From a virus: a stretch of DNA of 30,192 bases. Position numbers and translations under genes: made by a program. Location of the stretch: positions 1-30,192 of the IMG/VR virus record IMGVR_UViG_3300035698_005094, one strand, 5' to 3'. Below are positions 6,190 to 29,124 of this stretch, piece by piece (the stretch's first letter is position 1; each line of letters begins with the position of its first letter). The notes beneath the pieces are model-generated. The model was not told the origin of the DNA. It saw nothing but the letters and a program-made list of their open reading frames with translations, and searched no databases.

Positions 6190-8289
6190 ATGGCTAAACT
6201 AATGAATGCACTAGGGGAACATCATTCCCACATAGCGATTGTAAGAGACAATGACACAGGGGTTACAAGTAAAAAGTATAATCATACTCATTTAATCCGT
6301 TTAGAACAAACAGGAATTAATGAACAAACACAACAACCTACATTTGAATTAAAAGTATTGCCTGGAGGTAAAGATCCACACGTACATAAATTACAAGAAG
6401 TTGTTTTAAAGAAAAAAGACCAAAAGAAAAACACAGCTGAAGAAGAAGCTAAAAGGCTTAAAGAAGCAATAGAATTAAACAATGCTGCCTTTGGTAATGA
6501 AATAACATATAGGGATAAAGGTAAAGAGTCAGATGATTTTTATTTAGGTGGAGAAGGTCAATGGGATCCTAATGTATTACTAAAATTAATAACTGATGGT
6601 AGTGCTGCAATAACGCTTAATGAGATAAAAAGAATCATTAATATTCTTCATGGATATCACCAACAAAATGCAACTTCAATCAAGTATTCACCTACAGAAA
6701 ATGGTGATCAAGTTACAGCTGATATTCTTAATCATTTATCATCATGGGTATTAGAAAAGAATAATTATAAGCATGAGAAGGGCGAGGCTTTCCTTGACTT
6801 AGCGATTACTGGTAGAGGTAATCTTAATGCCTACATAGATGGACCTACGTATAAGAACGGTACGTTAGTTGTTAATGATAGAAACATTGAAGGTAATATT
6901 GTAATTGAAAAATGGCCATGGGATCAGGTTTCATATGGACCATACGATAAGAAGTCAGCTGAAGATTTAGAATACTTAACATTATGGCGTTGGGTTTCAC
7001 AAGGATATTTAAAACAACTAGTTCCTGAAAAAGAAAAACCAATAAGTGAATCTAACTATTTTGGTGGTGGCGAAACTTGGAAGAGTGAAGTACATGTTGT
7101 GCATAGAGAAGAAATATTTCCTGTGGATCCACAACAACTATTTGCTAACAGTGATGATTGGATAGATGTAAAAAATAAAAGAATGAAATTAGTTACAGTT
7201 TACAAAAAAGAGTATGTTTATAATAACTACGTCGTAGATATGAATAGTGATGTAGAGATTAATTTAGACGATTATGAAACTACAAAACCATTTATCAAAG
7301 AAGTTTTATCGTTAGATGGATTTGAGAGAATCACTAAGAGTAATGAAGTATTATGGGAAACTAAGTTTTGTGCAAATATCTTAGTATCAGCTGATATAAA
7401 AGAATTCAAGAAATTCCCTACTATACCTGCTCATGGCGTTAAAAGAGGAAAAGTAATCCAAGGCAAGGTTGAGGATCTAAAGGATCCACAAAGAGAGAAA
7501 AACCACCGTAGATCTAAAGTTAGTGATCAAGCTAATAGAACTGCAACTGTATTCTTTGCAAAACCTAATACGCTAGATGAGAGTGTAAACACAATGGATG
7601 ATTTTCAAAATAATGTATCTAAAGATGGATCTATTTTTATTATTAACGACGATGCTGAACCTCCAAAAGCTGAAAAGACATTACAGATTGACCAACAATT
7701 AGTAATGTTAGACCAATTGGCTAGTAAAGATATGGAACGTATCGCAAATGTAAACACAGAATTACTTGGTGGAGGAAATGCTAAATCTGCTATCTTATTT
7801 CAAGAACGTAAAGATGCAGCAATCCAAGGAAACGAATATATGTTTGAAGGTATGAGCCTATGTCAAAAGAACTTAGGATTAGTATTATTAGAAATGTTAC
7901 CGATAATCATGACTCCTGAAAGAGTTGTTAAAATTATAGGCACTAGAACAGCTAATGAGAATATACCAGACTCTTTAATTACTAAATATAGCCCAGAACA
8001 GATAGCCAAAATATGGGATACCGCTGATTTAACTCAATATGATGTTGCAGTTACTGAAAATGAATACTCACCAACTAAGAGACAATCAGACTTCAAGGCT
8101 TGGGCTTTTATTGTTGGACAAGTAAAGGATCCTGTTTATTTAGAATTCTTATTAGAACTTTCTGACTTACCACCTGACCAAAAAGAAAGGCTTAGAAAGA
8201 TTACTCAACAAGGTCTACAAGCTAAACAAGCAGACTCTCAGTTAAAATCTCAAACAGAGATACAGAAAACTGAAATAGCAAATCAATAA
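6190..8289 (+). CDS. P22-type portal protein with an N-terminal triple-HxH extension
   Basis: The true start is ATG 6190, 8 nt after AAAAGGAGG; an in-frame TTG upstream is inside the ribosome site. The product is 699 aa, in the P22 portal size range (about 725). The C-terminal half carries the P22 portal signature: RRSKVSDQANRTA, then GGGNAKSAILFQERKDAA, then a helix (CQKNLGLVLLEMLPIIM) and PERVVKIIG. It forms the ring at one vertex through which DNA is packaged and ejected. Residues 1-70 are an extra domain with HSH (12-14), HTH (32-34) and HVH (64-66), joined by a Lys/Glu-rich linker. That domain may bind metal. The C-terminus is a Gln/Lys-rich helix. Confidence 0.85.
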   Translation: MAKLMNALGEHHSHIAIVRDNDTGVTSKKYNHTHLIRLEQTGINEQTQQPTFELKVLPGGKDPHVHKLQEVVLKKKDQKKNTAEEEAKRLKEAIELNNAAFGNEITYRDKGKESDDFYLGGEGQWDPNVLLKLITDGSAAITLNEIKRIINILHGYHQQNATSIKYSPTENGDQVTADILNHLSSWVLEKNNYKHEKGEAFLDLAITGRGNLNAYIDGPTYKNGTLVVNDRNIEGNIVIEKWPWDQVSYGPYDKKSAEDLEYLTLWRWVSQGYLKQLVPEKEKPISESNYFGGGETWKSEVHVVHREEIFPVDPQQLFANSDDWIDVKNKRMKLVTVYKKEYVYNNYVVDMNSDVEINLDDYETTKPFIKEVLSLDGFERITKSNEVLWETKFCANILVSADIKEFKKFPTIPAHGVKRGKVIQGKVEDLKDPQREKNHRRSKVSDQANRTATVFFAKPNTLDESVNTMDDFQNNVSKDGSIFIINDDAEPPKAEKTLQIDQQLVMLDQLASKDMERIANVNTELLGGGNAKSAILFQERKDAAIQGNEYMFEGMSLCQKNLGLVLLEMLPIIMTPERVVKIIGTRTANENIPDSLITKYSPEQIAKIWDTADLTQYDVAVTENEYSPTKRQSDFKAWAFIVGQVKDPVYLEFLLELSDLPPDQKERLRKITQQGLQAKQADSQLKSQTEIQKTEIANQ

Positions 8290-8300
8290 ACTGCCATAAT

Positions 8301-8330
8301 TTGACATAGTATATTTATTTATGCTATTAA
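8301..8330 (+). promoter_or_regulatory. Predicted promoter for the scaffold/capsid genes
   Basis: TTGACA (8301-8306), an 18-bp spacer ending in TATGC, then TATTAA (8325-8330). Same layout as the promoters at 6144 and 24888. The predicted start near 8337 lies immediately before a ribosome site and a terminator. Confidence 0.6.
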
Positions 8331-8346
8331 TTGAATATGCGAGGAG

Positions 8347-8386
8347 AAACCGATGCTGTCATTTAGACAGTTGTCGGTTTTTTTTT
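8347..8386 (+). terminator. Intrinsic terminator / attenuator before the scaffold gene
   Basis: Outer stem AAACCGA (8347-8353) with TCGGTTT (8374-8380), small internal loop, inner stem CTGTC with GACAG, loop ATTTA, then nine T (8378-8386). It could simply end transcripts from the portal side, but it lies about 10 nt downstream of the predicted start of the promoter at 8301 and overlaps a small ORF, so it may act as an attenuator. Confidence 0.7.
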
Positions 8387-8427
8387 GTTATGGGGTACAA
8401 CGATTACTCGTTCCCAGAAAAATTTAA
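8353..8427 (+). CDS. Putative 24-codon leader peptide over the terminator
   Basis: GAGGAG (8341-8346) is followed after 6 nt by ATG 8353. The frame reads MLSFRQLSVFFCYGVQRLLV and ends at TAA 8425-8427. The start codon is inside the 5' arm of the terminator and the ORF covers the whole hairpin. If translated, ribosomes would unfold the terminator. The product itself shows no domain; the arrangement is what matters. Expression is unproven. Confidence 0.35.
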   Translation: MLSFRQLSVFFCYGVQRLLVPRKI

Positions 8428-9559: not shown

Positions 9560-10657
9560 ATGAGTGCTAACAATTTTGCAGACAATACTACCGTAAGAGC
9601 ACAGAAATATTCAGAAAGAGTTTGGAGAGAAAAACTTCCAAGTTTATTCTGGAATCGATTTATGAATTTCCCAATGCCTGGGCAAGAAGGGTTTACTAAG
9701 GATCAGTATATTATTAATGCTGAAACTGGAAAGATAACAGGATACAATTCAAAAGGTAATTCACCTGTTTATGTTGTAAGAGACTTAATGTCTGGATTCG
9801 GTGACAGGGTTACATTTCCACACGTTAAAGCATTAGAAGGAGACGGTATCACTGGTACTTCAGGGGTTACGCTAGAGGGTAACGAAGAAGCAATGGAAAC
9901 AAGTAATTTTCCTGTAACTTTAGAGGAATATGCTCACTCGGTTGCTGATAAATCTCCATTAGGAAGAAAGAGAACTCAATTTTCAATCGTACAAGAAATG
10001 GGTAATCAAATTCTTAGTTGGGGTGCTGTTAAAACAGATAAGCTTTTCTGGGAAGCATTATATTCTGGAACACCGACAACTATTATCTATCCAGGTAATA
10101 GAACATCTACTGCACAATTGACTGATGCTACAGCTGATAGAATGACTATGACTATCTTAAGGGATGCTAAAGTTATTGCTAAAACTAGAAACGAAGGTGC
10201 TAGATGGATTATTGAGCCAATTAAAATTGGTGGTAAAGAATGGTACATCGTTGTTATGTGTCCTGATGCGTTAGCAGATTTGAAAGAAGATGCTGAATTC
10301 AAGACTTCATTACAAAATGCAATGCCAAGATCTCAAGCAGATAATCCAATTTTTGCTGGAGCATCTTATGTAACTGTAGATGGATTGATCATTTATGATC
10401 ATGAAAGAGCTTTGCAAGTTACTAACTGGGGTGCTGGCGGAGACGTACCGGGGGCGAGAGTTAAGTTATTTGGTGTTAATGCACTTATGTATGCTATGAC
10501 TACTGCACCTGCATTAGTTGGTCAGGATACAGATTACGGTCGTAAGAAAGCTCTAAGTTTTCAAATGATTACTAAGGTTGAAAGACCTGTATTCGATTCT
10601 ATCGATTATGGTTCTTTAGAAATCAGAGTATCTAGAAGAAAAAGATCTGACGCTTAG
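9560..10657 (+). CDS. Major capsid protein, N4-gp56 family
   Basis: A 365-aa protein with the features of the N4-gp56-like major capsid family (HK97 fold): an N-terminal RAQKYSERVWREKL helix, GDRVTFPHVKALEGDGITG (about 85-103) leading to the GNEEAMET segment, an SVADKSPLGRKRTQF arm, a D-rich LFWEALYSG helix, and NPIFAGASYVTVDGLIIYDHER (about 260-281). It forms the icosahedral shell. Strong SD AAGGAGG precedes ATG 9560, as expected for a highly expressed gene. The pairing of this capsid family with P22-type portal and tail genes is a recurrent combination in environmental podoviruses. Confidence 0.9.
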   Translation: MSANNFADNTTVRAQKYSERVWREKLPSLFWNRFMNFPMPGQEGFTKDQYIINAETGKITGYNSKGNSPVYVVRDLMSGFGDRVTFPHVKALEGDGITGTSGVTLEGNEEAMETSNFPVTLEEYAHSVADKSPLGRKRTQFSIVQEMGNQILSWGAVKTDKLFWEALYSGTPTTIIYPGNRTSTAQLTDATADRMTMTILRDAKVIAKTRNEGARWIIEPIKIGGKEWYIVVMCPDALADLKEDAEFKTSLQNAMPRSQADNPIFAGASYVTVDGLIIYDHERALQVTNWGAGGDVPGARVKLFGVNALMYAMTTAPALVGQDTDYGRKKALSFQMITKVERPVFDSIDYGSLEIRVSRRKRSDA

Positions 10658-14339: not shown

Positions 14340-16048
14340 TATTAACGTTTGGAGTACACGAAGCAAGGCAAATTGATTTTATTGTAGCAGGAACATTAGA
14401 CGAAGTAGGAAACCCGAATGCATTCGGGTATGCTTATTTTTACGAACCTTCAGATTCATCTACATTAAAAGATGTATATGATGATGGAAATAAATCAAAC
14501 GTATTAGCTAACCCTGTTTTATTAAATAATAGAGGACAAGCAACTATCTTTGCTGATGGTACTTATCTTATTGAGATTCGTGATAGATCTGATTCAAAAA
14601 TAGATGATTATGATTTATTCATATATGAATCTATACAAAAATTTGGTGGGATATATATAGACGTAAAAGAAACATATGGAACTGATACATCTGCAATGAC
14701 TAACGCTATAGCAGCGGTAGATCCAGATCTAAGCTATACGTATTTATTCACTACTGGAAACTATACTTTTTCAGCTGATTTAGTATGGCCAGAGAATGTA
14801 ACTATAAAAATGATTCGTGGTGCACAATGGGATGTAAGCGTAGGGAATCAAGTAATCATATCTGGTGATTTAGAAGCTGGTCAGTATGAGGTTTTTGTTG
14901 GTGCTGGTGAAGTTATCCCAGTATCTTGTAATAATATTATTCAATATAATATTTGGGGTGATAACCTTGATACTGATATTGCTATTAAAAAAGATGCTAT
15001 ATTTTATGAATCAGTAACTATTAATAATTTATATGCACCTACATTAAACTTTAATTATGCATCTATTAATACTGCTGTAATCAACAATGCAGATGTTCAA
15101 AATATAACTGTTAATACATTATCGGTTACAACTAACTATACTAAAATAATCATATTCAATGAGTTTTTAGACGTAGGTAATGGATCTGATGGTGCTTATG
15201 TTATTACAACAAATACCCAAGTAACTTTAGATGGAGAATATCAATATACTAATTTAACAATTGATACTACTTCAACATTAAACGTAGGAACTAAAGGGTG
15301 GTTGGTTTTAAGAGTTAATGAAACATTAACTATATCAGGTAATATCATAGGTGACGGCAAAGGATCTTCTGGAGGTATTGGTGGTGGTGGTGGAGGTGAC
15401 GGTGGTGACGGTGGTGACGGAAACTATTTTGCAGCTACTGGAGGCGGAGCAGGATCTGGCGGTAAAGATGGAACATCTAGCCCCAGTACTGGTGCTGGTG
15501 GTAATAGTGGGAGAGTATTAGGAAATTCATATAATACTTTTAATAAATCGGCTGCAGCTGGTGGAGTTGGCGAAACTGTAAGGGATAACTATGGTAATCC
15601 CGGAACTAATGGAGTATCAGCAAATTATACACTAAGAGAAGTATTGCATTTAATTAAAAACGGATATGTAGCTATAGGTTCAGCTGGTGGTGGAAGTTCA
15701 CGAGGACTAGATGATAGTTCTTATGACGCTGTATCTGTACATGGTGGTAATGGTGGTGGTGGAATACTAATATCTGCTAAAAACATTATAATAAATGGAA
15801 CTCCTGTAATTAGCTCTAAAGGCATAGATGGACTAAATGGTGGACATGATGGTAATGGTGGTGGTGGTGGAGGTTCAGGTGCTGGTGCTGGTGGATCTAT
15901 TATTATTCAATATAATAATCTTACTGGTGCATTTCCTACCCTAACAGTTACTGGTGGAGACGGAGGTGGTGGTGGTGGAGGTAATAGACCAGGCGGTGCT
16001 GGTGGAGACGGTGGAGACGGATTCTCTGCTTCTATAGAATATAATTAG
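14270..16048 (+). CDS. Glycine-rich tail fibre / tailspike adhesin
   Basis: A 592-aa protein with SD AAGGAGGG before ATG 14270, inside the end of the adaptor gene. A hydrophobic stretch lies at 15-28. Residues about 38-120 are a widespread fibre head domain (GTLDEVGNPNAFGYAYFYEP ... NPVLLNNRGQATIFADGTYLIEIRD) that attaches fibres to the particle. Residues about 130-350 are repetitive beta-strand sequence like a beta-helix. Residues about 355-590 hold several Gly-rich clusters (runs of G with D and S) as in adhesin tips built from polyglycine-II helices. It is the likely receptor-binding protein. The Gly clusters are encoded by GGT/GGA repeats, which favours recombination-driven change. Confidence 0.8.
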   Translation: MYWRKLFRKLPRIWQLSIISTTLILTFGVHEARQIDFIVAGTLDEVGNPNAFGYAYFYEPSDSSTLKDVYDDGNKSNVLANPVLLNNRGQATIFADGTYLIEIRDRSDSKIDDYDLFIYESIQKFGGIYIDVKETYGTDTSAMTNAIAAVDPDLSYTYLFTTGNYTFSADLVWPENVTIKMIRGAQWDVSVGNQVIISGDLEAGQYEVFVGAGEVIPVSCNNIIQYNIWGDNLDTDIAIKKDAIFYESVTINNLYAPTLNFNYASINTAVINNADVQNITVNTLSVTTNYTKIIIFNEFLDVGNGSDGAYVITTNTQVTLDGEYQYTNLTIDTTSTLNVGTKGWLVLRVNETLTISGNIIGDGKGSSGGIGGGGGGDGGDGGDGNYFAATGGGAGSGGKDGTSSPSTGAGGNSGRVLGNSYNTFNKSAAAGGVGETVRDNYGNPGTNGVSANYTLREVLHLIKNGYVAIGSAGGGSSRGLDDSSYDAVSVHGGNGGGGILISAKNIIINGTPVISSKGIDGLNGGHDGNGGGGGGSGAGAGGSIIIQYNNLTGAFPTLTVTGGDGGGGGGGNRPGGAGGDGGDGFSASIEYN

Positions 16049-22864: not shown

Positions 22865-23410
22865 ATGTCAACTATATCAAAGAGAAAGACAAGTAACGGA
22901 TTTGGAATTTATCAAGCAGGGGAACTTATCAGTGTTGATAATATGGATTCTGATCAAGCTAATAACTTTATTAAAAACATGGATAGAACAATGTCGAAAG
23001 ATTGGTACAAAGAGTTACAAAAGACTTCTAAAAACAATCAATCTACTGAAGAGGGAAAAGTTAAAAAGGTAGTAGATAGATTACATAAAGAAGAAGCTGA
23101 TGCTAAGAAAGCAGACGCAGAAGCAAAGAAAAGAGCTGATGCTGAAGCTAAAAAGATTGCTGATGCTAAGACTAAAGCAGATAAGGAAAAACTTATAGCT
23201 GCTGAAAAGGTTGCTAATGAAAAGAAAGCAGTTGAAGCTAAAGCTATTGTTGATGCAAAGGCAGTTGAAGCTGCTGCTAAACAGGCTAAAGCTGATGCAG
23301 AATCAAAGAAAAAATCAGTAGCTAGTCAAATACAGGATCCAGTAATAGCGGAGAAAAAAGTAGAAGTTCCTGTTTCTAATCAATCAGAGTCAAATAAAGC
23401 TAATGCCTAA
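22865..23410 (+). CDS. TolA-like Ala/Lys/Glu coiled-coil protein
   Basis: A 181-aa protein. Residues 1-60 are a small polar domain. Residues about 68-155 are a long continuous helix of Ala, Lys, Glu, Asp with repeated AEAKK/DAKK units, as in TolA domain II, then a polar tail. No membrane segment is seen. Its stop overlaps the endolysin start, so it is co-translated with it. It may be a virion rod or an envelope-spanning linker used at lysis. A second orphan AAAGGAG lies upstream at about 22813 without a usable start. Confidence 0.6.
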   Translation: MSTISKRKTSNGFGIYQAGELISVDNMDSDQANNFIKNMDRTMSKDWYKELQKTSKNNQSTEEGKVKKVVDRLHKEEADAKKADAEAKKRADAEAKKIADAKTKADKEKLIAAEKVANEKKAVEAKAIVDAKAVEAAAKQAKADAESKKKSVASQIQDPVIAEKKVEVPVSNQSESNKANA

Positions 23411-23810
23411 GTATGGCAAACGTTCATTAGAAAATCTTAACTCCTGTGATCCAAAGTTGCAGGAGTTATTTAATGAAGTAATCAAACATGTTGATTGTTC
23501 TATTATTTGTGGCCATAGAGGAGAAGAAGCACAAAATAAAGCATTTAATGAAGGTCACTCTAAGCTCAAATTTCCTGATTCTAAACATAACAAGAAACCA
23601 AGCAAAGCTGTAGATTCCCCACCATATTTCAAAGTTAAACCACATATAAGATGGAACGATAAAGAAGCATTCTGTTTATTTGCTGGTAAGGTTTTAGGAA
23701 TAGCTGCAATGATGGGCATTAAAATACGTTGGGGTGGGAATTGGGACGGAGACGATGAGCTCCATGATCAAACCTTTTTCGATGGACCCCATTTCGAACT
23801 TATAGATTGA
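23403..23810 (+). CDS. Endolysin, M15-type L-alanyl-D-glutamate peptidase
   Basis: A 135-aa protein matching the phage peptidoglycan peptidase family (M15; VanY/Ply500-like). GHRGEEAQNKAFNEG (37-51) is the entry motif. SKHNKKPSKAVD (60-71) contains the SxHxxxxAxD zinc motif (H62, D71). WGGNWDGDDELHDQTFFDGPHFE (110-132) supplies the last zinc His (H130) and catalytic acidic residue. It cuts peptide stems of peptidoglycan to release progeny. No signal peptide, so it needs a holin. It overlaps the TolA-like gene by 8 nt. Confidence 0.9.
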   Translation: MPKYGKRSLENLNSCDPKLQELFNEVIKHVDCSIICGHRGEEAQNKAFNEGHSKLKFPDSKHNKKPSKAVDSPPYFKVKPHIRWNDKEAFCLFAGKVLGIAAMMGIKIRWGGNWDGDDELHDQTFFDGPHFELID

Positions 23811-24816: not shown

Positions 24817-24842
24817 ATAAACCATAAAAACTTGATATTTTA

Positions 24843-24876
24843 AAAGGCAGGCTGTAACTGGTCTGTCTTTTTTTTT
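24843..24876 (+). terminator. Strong intrinsic terminator of the late operon
   Basis: AAAGGCAGGC (24843-24852) pairs with GTCTGTCTTT (24861-24870) over 10 bp with two G:U pairs; loop TGTAACTG; T tract to 24876 (nine T). It separates late genes from the early-type operon that begins downstream with its own promoter. Confidence 0.85.
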
Positions 24877-24887
24877 ATAAATTTCTC

Positions 24888-24917
24888 TTGACTTTCATAT
24901 TTGTATTTTGCTAATGT
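24888..24917 (+). promoter_or_regulatory. Predicted promoter of the replication/recombination operon
   Basis: TTGACT (24888-24893), an 18-bp spacer ending TTTTGC, then TAATGT (24912-24917). It shares the TTGAC...TGC-TA arrangement with promoters at 6144 and 8301. The predicted start near 24923-24925 coincides with the beginning of the first leader hairpin. Confidence 0.6.
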
Positions 24918-24922
24918 TGGAA

Positions 24923-25031
24923 CAGAAAAAAGAGTCTGGTATAAACAAATTTTTCTGAACAAATTATGGTCTACTAACTAGTTAATCCTCACCAGACTCA
25001 TCTAGTTAGTAGGCCTCCAGAAAAGGGGCTT
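24923..25031 (+). ncRNA. Structured 5' leader: predicted kissing-loop RNA with SD-masking hairpin
   Basis: Hairpin 1: CAGAAAAA (24923-24930) with TTTTTCTG (24950-24957), 8 perfect pairs, 19-nt loop. Hairpin 2: GGTCTACTAACTAG (24968-24981) with CTAGTTAGTAGGCC (25002-25015), 14 pairs with one G:U, 20-nt loop. The loop of hairpin 1 contains GAGTCTGGT (24932-24940), the exact reverse complement of ACCAGACTC (24991-24999) in the loop of hairpin 2. Downstream, AGGCCTC (25011-25017) can pair with GGGGCTT (25025-25031), covering the ribosome site of the gene at 25036 and competing with the base of hairpin 2. I know no named RNA family matching it. Confidence 0.6.
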
Positions 25032-25035
25032 AAAT

Positions 25036-25401
25036 ATGAGCGTTGAAATGAATACTGTTTATGTTAATGTCATTAGTTTTAAGGGTATATGCGACGATGC
25101 TGAACACTACTACATCAAGATAGATGGGGAAGATTTAAAATATAAGCTATCAGAAAATCAAGCTAATTATTTAAACAAAAAGGATCCATCATTTAAGTAT
25201 AATGAAGGTGATGAAACTAATAGATTTTTTAACGAATATCAAGGCATAAGCACAGCTATTAAAAAGGTTAAAGCTATGAAAAATATTGATACTATTATAG
25301 TCACTGACAGAATGAGATTAAGATATGAGATAGTTCTTAATCATAGAATATTAAGAAATTATTGGGATTCACTACAAGTAAAGGATAATAAAAGTGTCTA
25401 A
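25036..25401 (+). CDS. First gene of the early operon, unknown function, 121 aa
   Basis: A soluble 121-aa protein. The N-terminal half looks like beta-strands (NTVYVNVISFKGICDD, HYYIKIDGEDLKYKL), the rest is helical and charged; IDTIIVTDRMRLRYEIVLNHR is strand-turn-helix. No family recognised. It is the first gene after the structured leader, and its ribosome site AAAAGGGG (7 nt before ATG 25036) is the one that can be masked by the leader. It overlaps the replication gene by 8 nt. Confidence 0.65.
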   Translation: MSVEMNTVYVNVISFKGICDDAEHYYIKIDGEDLKYKLSENQANYLNKKDPSFKYNEGDETNRFFNEYQGISTAIKKVKAMKNIDTIIVTDRMRLRYEIVLNHRILRNYWDSLQVKDNKSV

Positions 25402-26065
25402 GAATCCATATTTCAAATTTTATCCTTCTGATTTTCTCATGGGATCAAATTATATGTCAGCTGAACAAGTTGGTGGATACATTAGATTATTATGTATGCA
25501 ATGGGATATGCGATATCTCCCAACAGACTATAAAATACTTTCAAGGATTTCTGGTTGTTCACATGAAGACCTAGACCAAATACTAGAAAAATTCACTGAA
25601 ACTGAGCTTGGTTATATCAACACTAGGCTAGACAATGAAAGGGATTTAATAGATAAAAGAAGTCAGATAAATAGAGATAATGCAAACAAGCGATGGGGTA
25701 GTAATGGCAATGCGAACGCAATGCAAACGGATATGCATAGTCAGAAGTCAGAAGTCATAGTTCAGAAGTTAGAGGTTAAAGTTCAGAAGACAGATAAATA
25801 CAATCCTGCGGATGATTTATATTTTTTTAATGATCCAGACTTTAAATTAGTATGGAAAGATTACCTACAAGTTAGAACAAAGAAGAAAGCAGTAAGTTCA
25901 GAAAGAGCCATTAAGGAAAGAGTCAAAGAATTATTAGATCTTTGTAAAGATAACAAAGAAAAAGCAATGAAGATAGTTGCAAAATCAGCAGATAAAGGAT
26001 GGACCTCTTTTTATGAATTAGAAAAAGGATCCATAGATGGGGGAAAATTACCATGGCAGTCATAA
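25394..26065 (+). CDS. DUF1376-like replication initiator / replisome organiser
   Basis: A 223-aa protein starting at GTG 25394 after AAGGAT. PYFKFYPSDFLMGSNYMSAEQVGGYIRLLCMQW (about 5-37 in sense) is the DUF1376 / YdaU-like winged-helix N-domain found in phage replication proteins. NANKRWG (about 97-103) marks its end. Residues about 116-140 are a low-complexity linker (SQKSEV, VQKLEV, VQKTDK) encoded by DNA repeats. The C-terminal part (FKLVWKDYLQVRTKKKA ... WTSFYELEKGS) resembles the helical end of phage replication proteins. It should bind the origin and recruit helicase or loader. The repeats inside the gene are a candidate origin. Confidence 0.75.
   Translation: MSKNPYFKFYPSDFLMGSNYMSAEQVGGYIRLLCMQWDMRYLPTDYKILSRISGCSHEDLDQILEKFTETELGYINTRLDNERDLIDKRSQINRDNANKRWGSNGNANAMQTDMHSQKSEVIVQKLEVKVQKTDKYNPADDLYFFNDPDFKLVWKDYLQVRTKKKAVSSERAIKERVKELLDLCKDNKEKAMKIVAKSADKGWTSFYELEKGSIDGGKLPWQS
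25679..25730 (+). repeat. Three AATGCRAAC direct repeats inside the replication gene
   Basis: AATGCAAAC at 25679, AATGCGAAC at 25709 and AATGCAAAC at 25720; the last two are extended to AATGCRAACG and 11 bp apart (one helical turn), the first is 30 bp away. They lie just upstream of the heptanucleotide array, as iterons do beside an origin. Confidence 0.45.
25741..25796 (+). repeat. Degenerate 7-bp tandem array (TCAGAAG) in the replication gene
   Basis: Eight consecutive 7-bp units. Exact TCAGAAG occurs at 25741, 25748, 25762 and 25783, all at multiples of 7; the intervening units are TCATAGT, TTAGAGG, TTAAAGT and the last ACAGATA. The unit length is not a multiple of three, so the array is not there for a 7-nt coding reason, although three units give a 7-residue peptide repeat. 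Confidence 0.7.
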
Positions 26066-27211: not shown

Positions 27212-28108
27212 ATGGGAGAAAGTCAAGAATTAGTAAAAACAGAGAATACGCCATTAACATTAGCAACAATGTCAATGAAGGATATGAGGACACAAGCAGA
27301 AGTTATTTTAAAATCAAGCATATGTCCACCTAGTGTTAAGACACCAGAACAAGTAATGATGATCGGCATGATGGGAAAAGATATTGGGCTGAGATCTCTT
27401 TCTGAGTCTATGAGAAAAGTACACGTGTTTCCGGGTAAAGGTGGCGGACTTTTAACAATGTATCATTATTCAGTATTACTTGAAAAAGCAACTCAAAACG
27501 TTGAAGGATTTAGATATTCAGTATTAGAAGAATCTTCTGAAAAGGTTGTTGTTCTATACAAGAAAATAGTACGACTTCCTGGTGGGGTTATGGAGACAGT
27601 CGAATATAAATGTACTGCTACATATGAAGATGCTAAGAAAGCTGGTCTTGCTGGTAAAGATAATTGGCAGAAACATGCTGAAACTATGTTATGGGCTACT
27701 AATGCTCGTAAGATGATTAGAAGGTTTGCTCCAGAAGCAATGAAAGCTTATGTTGAAAGAGAACTTCCTTCAGAAGAAGAATCCATAAAAGCTATAGAGG
27801 ATCTTACAGGATCTGCAATAGAAATAATGGATGATGGTAGAAAAGTTGATACTGGTACTGGCGAGATTATAGAAGGTGAAATAGTAGAAGATACTCCAGA
27901 AGAAACAAAAACTGAAGTAGTAGAAGCTGAAGTAACTGAAGTAGTTGAAGAGAAGGTAGAAACAAAAGCACCATCGTTGATAGCTGAAGCTAAAAAGATT
28001 GTAAACATAGATCCATTGAAATGTGAAGTTTGCGGTGTAGCAATAAATGGTCAAGTAAGCGAAACTAGCAAAGCAAAGTTTGGCAAATACTTATGCTTCG
28101 ACCATTAA
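27212..28108 (+). CDS. RecT-like single-strand annealing protein with C-terminal zinc site
   Basis: A 298-aa protein. Residues about 20-190 match the RecT annealing fold: VMMIGMMGKDIGLRSLSESM (about 48-67), VHVFPGKGGGLLTMYHYSVLLEKA (70-93), an AKKAGLAGKDNWQKHAETMLWATNARKMIRRFAPEAM segment (about 141-177). It would coat and anneal ssDNA in phage recombination or replication. Residues about 200-262 are an acidic linker rich in E, V, T. The end has C271, C274, C295 and H298, a zinc finger unusual for RecT. It sits in the early operon with a replication initiator and an SbcD-like nuclease. SD AAGGAG precedes ATG. Confidence 0.75.
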   Translation: MGESQELVKTENTPLTLATMSMKDMRTQAEVILKSSICPPSVKTPEQVMMIGMMGKDIGLRSLSESMRKVHVFPGKGGGLLTMYHYSVLLEKATQNVEGFRYSVLEESSEKVVVLYKKIVRLPGGVMETVEYKCTATYEDAKKAGLAGKDNWQKHAETMLWATNARKMIRRFAPEAMKAYVERELPSEEESIKAIEDLTGSAIEIMDDGRKVDTGTGEIIEGEIVEDTPEETKTEVVEAEVTEVVEEKVETKAPSLIAEAKKIVNIDPLKCEVCGVAINGQVSETSKAKFGKYLCFDH

Positions 28109-28783: not shown

Positions 28784-28840
28784 AACTAGTCCCCTCTAGT
28801 TAAGGTGTGGTGGCGTGTCCCCCGATTTTGCCACCACATC
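28784..28840 (+). promoter_or_regulatory. Two tandem hairpins before the HNH-like gene
   Basis: Hairpin A: AACTAG (28784-28789) with CTAGTT (28796-28801), loop TCCCCT. Hairpin B: GGTGTGGTGGC (28804-28814) with GCCACCACATC (28830-28840), 11 pairs with one G:U, loop of 15 nt containing CCCCC. No T tract follows; hairpin B ends just before the AGGAG of the next gene. They could act as RNA processing or translation-control structures. Both loops carry C runs. Confidence 0.55.
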
Positions 28841-28851
28841 AGGAGATAATT

Positions 28852-29124
28852 ATGAACCAAAGAAACTATGAGAAGACAAAAAAAGGATTTCTAATGAGAC
28901 TTTATCACAATATGAAGTGTAGGGTTAATGGAGTCCAAACAAATAGAGCAAAGTACTTTAAAGGTGTTGAATTGTTGGGTAAAGAAGAGTTTTATGATTG
29001 GGCTAACAAGCATCTTTTGTTCCATAAACTGTTTTATGATTGGGAGATAAGTGGCTACGAAAGAAGATTAGTTCCGAGTATTGATAGAATTGATAGTAGT
29101 AAGGGTTATGTAGTAGCAAAGTGA
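28852..29124 (+). CDS. HNH-like homing-type endonuclease remnant, 90 aa
   Basis: Start is ATG 28852 after AGGAG; the frame is open upstream through the hairpins without a good start. KKGFLMRLYHNMKCRVNGVQ, GKEEFYDWA, LFYDWEISGYERRLVPSIDRIDSSKGY (about 58-84 in sense) are the typical N-part of phage HNH proteins, in which SIDRID is the conserved acidic motif. The usual following part (an N-M-x-W-x-T and the final His/Asn) is missing: the frame ends in VVAK. The +1 frame continues as DNSKRANSKKRMVAYA, like the normal end of the family. So the gene is probably truncated or decayed and inactive. Confidence 0.6.
   Translation: MNQRNYEKTKKGFLMRLYHNMKCRVNGVQTNRAKYFKGVELLGKEEFYDWANKHLLFHKLFYDWEISGYERRLVPSIDRIDSSKGYVVAK

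Follow-up and report, generated by a model that had tools for sequence, protein, structure and literature searches.

The RNA leader of the early replication operon in this viral contig very probably forms a strong hairpin that is able to pair, through its loop, with a segment a short way upstream; RNA switches that govern protein synthesis typically have such a shape. The feature is genuine, a predicted strong fold at the start of the operon with a likely pseudoknot, and the best-supported reading overall is that of a cis-acting translational or stability element. An earlier note on this DNA had proposed a folded leader for an early replication/recombination operon, a proposal that the analysis supports.

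The leader in its genomic setting

The window, i.e., the whole stretch of DNA that was analysed, is an orphan viral contig (virus record) of 30,192 bases that is AT-rich (34% GC). It encodes a P22-type portal (Pfam, 3.7e-68) and also carries terminase and major head protein genes. An endolysin-like gene (23403-23810) codes for a protein about 50% identical to Vibrio phage endolysins, a resemblance that suggests a Gram-negative host. The other window proteins that were checked found only distant matches among phage records, or none.

The endolysin-like gene is followed by a terminator, a gap, and the early operon, which comprises P0001, P0002, P0003, a RecT-like gene at 27212-28108 (weak match), a gene of HNH type, and, cut by the contig end, a metallophosphoesterase gene. 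The element occupies positions 24923-25015, inside the 219-nt gap between the terminator and the first early gene. Its 3' end lies about 20 nt before the P0001 AUG and 7 nt before the AAGG of the ribosome site. The two hairpins (H1 and H2), the loop complement (K), and their neighbors are as follows.

24842-24871, + strand: intrinsic terminator at the end of the lysis/late genes upstream (found in a scan for terminators; 13-pair stem followed by a T-run)
24888-24917, + strand: candidate promoter, TTGACT-18-TAATGT, with TG before the -10 (sequence and scoring; start expected near 24924)
24923-24957, + strand: H1, an AT-rich, marginal 8-pair hairpin (arms 24923-24930/24950-24957) with a 19-nt loop (sequence, energy, chance level)
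24932-24940, + strand: 5' strand of K, GAGTCTGGT, exactly complementary to 24991-24999
24968-25015, + strand: H2, a 14-pair hairpin (arms 24968-24981/25002-25015; 13 Watson-Crick pairs and one G-U) with a 20-nt loop (complementarity, energy, chance level)
24991-24999, + strand: 3' strand of K, ACCAGACTC, in the 3' part of the H2 loop (sequence)
25021-25028, + strand: ribosome-binding site, AAAAGGGG (sequence)
25036-25401, + strand: P0001, first gene of the early operon, 121 aa, an orphan (no Pfam, PHROGs, or NCBIfam family)
25394-26065, + strand: P0002, DUF1376/primosomal-type replication protein (Pfam PF07120, 2.1e-10; PHROG primosomal, 2.3e-14)

The predicted structure of P0001 is poor (pLDDT 49). 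Its gene shares an 8-nt overlap with that of P0002, through which translational coupling of P0002 to P0001 is expected. Further down the operon, the HNH-type endonuclease frame (28807-29124, 105 aa) looks short and has weak PHROG matches only; it is possibly truncated.

H1 had been placed at the predicted start of a promoter. That promoter is plausible, with a start near 24924, but its score is equalled at 34 sites on the + strand of the window, which makes it weak evidence. No plausible reading frame runs through the element. A leader peptide was considered and rejected, as the only frame is a 26-codon one that opens with TTG, has no ribosome site, and lies in A/T-rich sequence.

Pairings, chance levels, and architecture

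Upon re-reading the sequence, the coordinates given earlier for H1, H2, and K all proved correct. The description of the pairings as perfect holds for K, which is exact over 9 nt and stops there without extension, but not for H2, where one of the 14 pairs is U-G and the arms are 93% complementary. The H1 loop is laid out as 1+9+9 nt and the H2 loop as 9+9+2 nt (K being the middle term), which puts K on the 5' side of loop 1 and on the 3' side of loop 2. Read from 5' to 3', the order is best taken as that of an H-type pseudoknot: the 5' strand of K, a 27-nt crossing, the 5' arm of H2, 9 nt, the 3' strand of K, 2 nt, and the 3' arm of H2.

Chance levels were simulated with first-order Markov models at the 219-nt length of the leader. 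A stem of at least 14 pairs arises in 0.05% (window composition) to 0.15% (leader composition) of the simulations, and, given H2, a 9-nt loop complement within the 116 nt of flanking leader is found in 0.25% by chance. Given K, on the other hand, a stem of at least 8 pairs enclosing its 5' strand arises by chance in 3.7%, a level due to the runs of A and T that flank K. Real sequence was also used as a control. H2 is the longest of only three + strand hairpins with at least 12 pairs (loop up to 30) in the 30-kb window, and the 110-nt stretches that hold it (z = -3.6 and -3.9) rank in the top 13 of 1003. A survey of 98 viral loci, related or unrelated, that covered 0.9 Mb on both strands gave 160 hairpins with 12 or more pairs, eight of which carry a loop complement of at least 8 nt within 100 nt. 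The longest of these complements (L043, L055, and L056) lie inside origin-looking arrays of repeated words. H2 and K exceed chance and therefore stand as real candidates for selection. H1 is doubtful and does not count as independent evidence. The earlier statement that three independent pairings were very unlikely by chance is therefore upheld for H2 and K, which are improbable, but was overstated with respect to the marginal H1.

The predicted energies are -19.4 kcal/mol for H2 alone (pair probability about 1.0), -3.5 kcal/mol for H1 alone, and -14.2 kcal/mol for the duplex of K. Once H2 has formed, both 9-mers of K are nearly free in the ensemble and cost 1.9 kcal/mol to open, leaving a net gain of -12.3 kcal/mol for K before any pseudoknot penalty. 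With both 9-mers held open, the fold with H1 reaches -28.4 kcal/mol vs -29.9 kcal/mol for the one in which the 5' arm of H1 is unpaired, and the H1-less fold is favored by about 1.4 kcal/mol.

The most fitting description of the element is a hairpin of 14 bp together with a 9-bp helix between its loop and the upstream segment, an H-type pseudoknot, which accounts for the strong parts. As a predicted fold, such a pseudoknot upstream of the ribosome-binding site agrees with the pairing potential, the position, and the energy. The label of kissing loops, under which the element was first described, retains a solid H2 and a solid 9-nt complement, but its first hairpin is marginal and is not favored when K is open. 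A kissing complex would form only if the weak H1 also did, and is one possible form of the leader. In kissing-loop RNAs such as ColE1 RNAI/RNAII, two hairpin loops are perfectly complementary. In the leader, both partners are in cis, the hairpin around loop 1 is marginal, and the contact falls on opposite sides of the two loops. Since K lies on the 5' side of loop 1 and on the 3' side of loop 2, the loop layout implies that the two hairpins would emerge from one end of the K helix, which differs from a classical coaxial kissing complex.

In the minimum-energy fold, UUUUUCUG (24950-24957) pairs with CAGAAAAG (25018-25025) over the ribosome site and replaces H1. A switch between H1 and the ribosome site was nevertheless rejected as evidence, as this pairing is at control level: 11 of 29 other start regions in the window pair equally long with the UUUUUCUG octamer, as do 5.8% of shuffles. 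The cost of opening the ribosome site barely shifts with the K loops held open (6.9 against 7.6 kcal/mol), which counts against the operator reading given below.

Proposed function and rival explanations

Tentatively, we read the element as a cis-acting leader pseudoknot that acts as translational operator of the early replication operon. This reading builds on H2 and K exceeding chance, the favorable energy of K, the location in the gap, and the precedent of T4 gene 32. Transcription would start from the promoter at 24888-24917, and in vivo the leader would fold into H2 with its loop pairing to the upstream K segment, with or without H1. The pseudoknot would end at the upstream edge of the would-be 30S position and, while folded, keep the upstream part of the leader clear of the ribosome-binding site. 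Binding or melting of the pseudoknot, for example by an early protein of the phage acting in feedback or by a factor of the host, could then change initiation at P0001, and this change would be passed on to the coupled genes downstream. What the analysis shows is the potential for base pairing, its departure from randomness, its energies, and its position, whereas transcription from this promoter, folding in vivo, the regulatory effect, and any ligand are inferred. As P0001 belongs to no known family and its model is poor, autogenous control is put forward without a candidate RNA-binding protein. The lack of any homolog in the collections searched also counts against this reading.

The nearest mechanism is the T4 gene 32 operator, where a 5' pseudoknot in the leader, upstream of the ribosome site, serves autogenous control (PMC535899). 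Both systems would share a 5' leader pseudoknot, a weakly structured ribosome region, and a replication/recombination gene (PMC535899). They differ in that the folded part of T4 measures about 28 nt vs about 84-93 nt here with a 14-bp hairpin, in that no series of UUAAA repeats was found in this leader, and in that P0001 is not recognizable as a ssDNA-binding protein. Membership is not claimed, and the regulator is putative. Going further, the leader could represent a cis-regulatory phage RNA of a new class, built of three helices with two hairpin loops locked over 9 bp, that gates translation of an early replication operon according to a host signal or a phage protein, but we consider this decidedly unlikely. 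If functional, the element would add an unlisted folded leader to the few phage RNAs known to control replication genes and offer a compact pseudoknot open to compensatory mutation; at present, it is a single-copy prediction.

Several other explanations deserve to be weighed against the operator. The folded leader may be a passive 5' stabilizer or spacer that guards the early mRNA against decay at its 5' end and leaves the ribosome site unpaired, without any switching. The structure indeed starts at the expected transcription start, stops just upstream of the ribosome site, and contains a very stable H2, but a bare H2 would suffice for this purpose and K (0.25% by chance given H2) would be left unexplained. 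We find this role unlikely. Somewhat more improbable is a role at the DNA level, in which inverted 9-bp protein sites within palindromes, located where the replication operon begins, form an operator pair or a replication-origin element. In origin-like control loci (L043, L055, L056, and L122), the loops of hairpins do complement copies of one word that recurs nearby, and the 9-mer of the leader sits at an equal offset in both loops when viewed from opposite strands. These control loci are many-copy iteron arrays, however, and the leader, unlike L055, L056, and L122, has no array of repeated words but only two copies of its 9-mer. The one further exact copy is 17 kb away inside the portal gene, no GC-skew switch is seen at the site, and the 9-mer itself is not palindromic, while the G-U pair of H2 is natural for RNA. 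A similarly low probability is given to a chance or decayed feature without function. There is one known copy, and the structures of interest were chosen by eye from 30 kb; yet the joint probability of H2 and K (the product of two simulation figures) is of the order of 1e-6 per leader-length stretch, and the element occupies the only position at which one would expect a leader.

The remaining two alternatives assign the RNA another mode of action. The put RNA of phage HK022 consists of two hairpins starting an early transcript (PMC9378689), and a put-like RNA here would modify RNA polymerase from the start of the early operon. The likeness to putL in HK022, namely an early phage transcript that opens with a pair of hairpins (PMC9378689), is set against a different build: put is about 70 nt long, V-shaped with a triplex, and conserved in sequence, and the leader is distinguished by its 20-nt, complementary loops. 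We located putL in HK022 by its published residues, collected relatives, and built a covariance model from nine put RNAs. The model recovers putL and putR (96 and 52 bits) but finds no match in the leader, whose alignment to putL is no better than that of shuffles. Membership of the put family was rejected on these two results, and put-like antitermination as such appears very improbable. Finally, the exposed loops could join two leader molecules, or bind some other RNA of the phage or the host, as well as pair within one molecule. For such a trans-acting or dimerizing RNA, we see scarcely any probability: no second non-coding locus in the window carries the loop sequence, proximity favors intramolecular pairing, and no independent terminator follows H2.

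Relatives, known RNA families, and other structured loci

The earlier remark that no named RNA family has this layout was borne out by Rfam. In the window, no family of Rfam 15 reaches its gathering threshold, and in a permissive scan of the leader the best score is 15 bits vs thresholds of 38 or more, under biologically irrelevant names. STAXI, a pseudoknot found near genes for ssDNA-binding and DNA-handling proteins (PMC2864571), and c4, a structured RNA of antisense type with a link to phages, are both phage or mobile-element RNAs in Rfam; they match neither the window at gathering score nor the leader in the permissive scan.

The leader DNA has no match among 50,697 phage records, and P0001 has no homolog in phages, viral contigs, or genome contigs (bacterial genome collections). 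Scanned one protein at a time, the terminase, the RecT-like protein, and P0002 gave no match either; the collections searched may omit records very near the window's own genome. The closest relatives are about 27-34% identical for the terminase, 25-31% for the capsid, and 22-32% for P0002, and P0001 is absent from all nine relatives' records checked. In viral contigs, the exact K pair pattern occurs in 12 stretches, none with comparable flanking hairpins, which by our own estimate is roughly the chance expectation for a collection of this size. The pattern of the H2 arms occurs there in nine stretches, none of which shares the loop or any window protein; the only one with a 9-nt loop complement (L122) was discarded as an iteron array. 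As far as these comparisons indicate, the leader has a single known copy and belongs to a lineage without a close relative in the collections searched.

A second structured leader (28784-28852) precedes the HNH-type gene (ATG at 28852). It combines a 6-pair AACTAG/CTAGTT hairpin with a 12-pair hairpin (28804-28840), and no similar DNA was found in phages. The strongest fold of the window (8281-8420, z about -7) directly follows the portal gene and is a terminator hairpin that leads into a long run of T. Outside the window, two related contigs carry origin-like repeat arrays on the minus strand (L055, about 9970-10130; L056, about 7850-8010), in which the repeated word differs as a set, being ACTGTCGCA in one and ACTGGAGCA in the other, the copy in the hairpin loop included. 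This looks like a coordinated iteron replacement, perhaps together with the protein recognizing it. In L043 (minus strand, 15480-15700), tandem CAACGCGTCAC-type repeats adjoin a hairpin with a related word in its loop.
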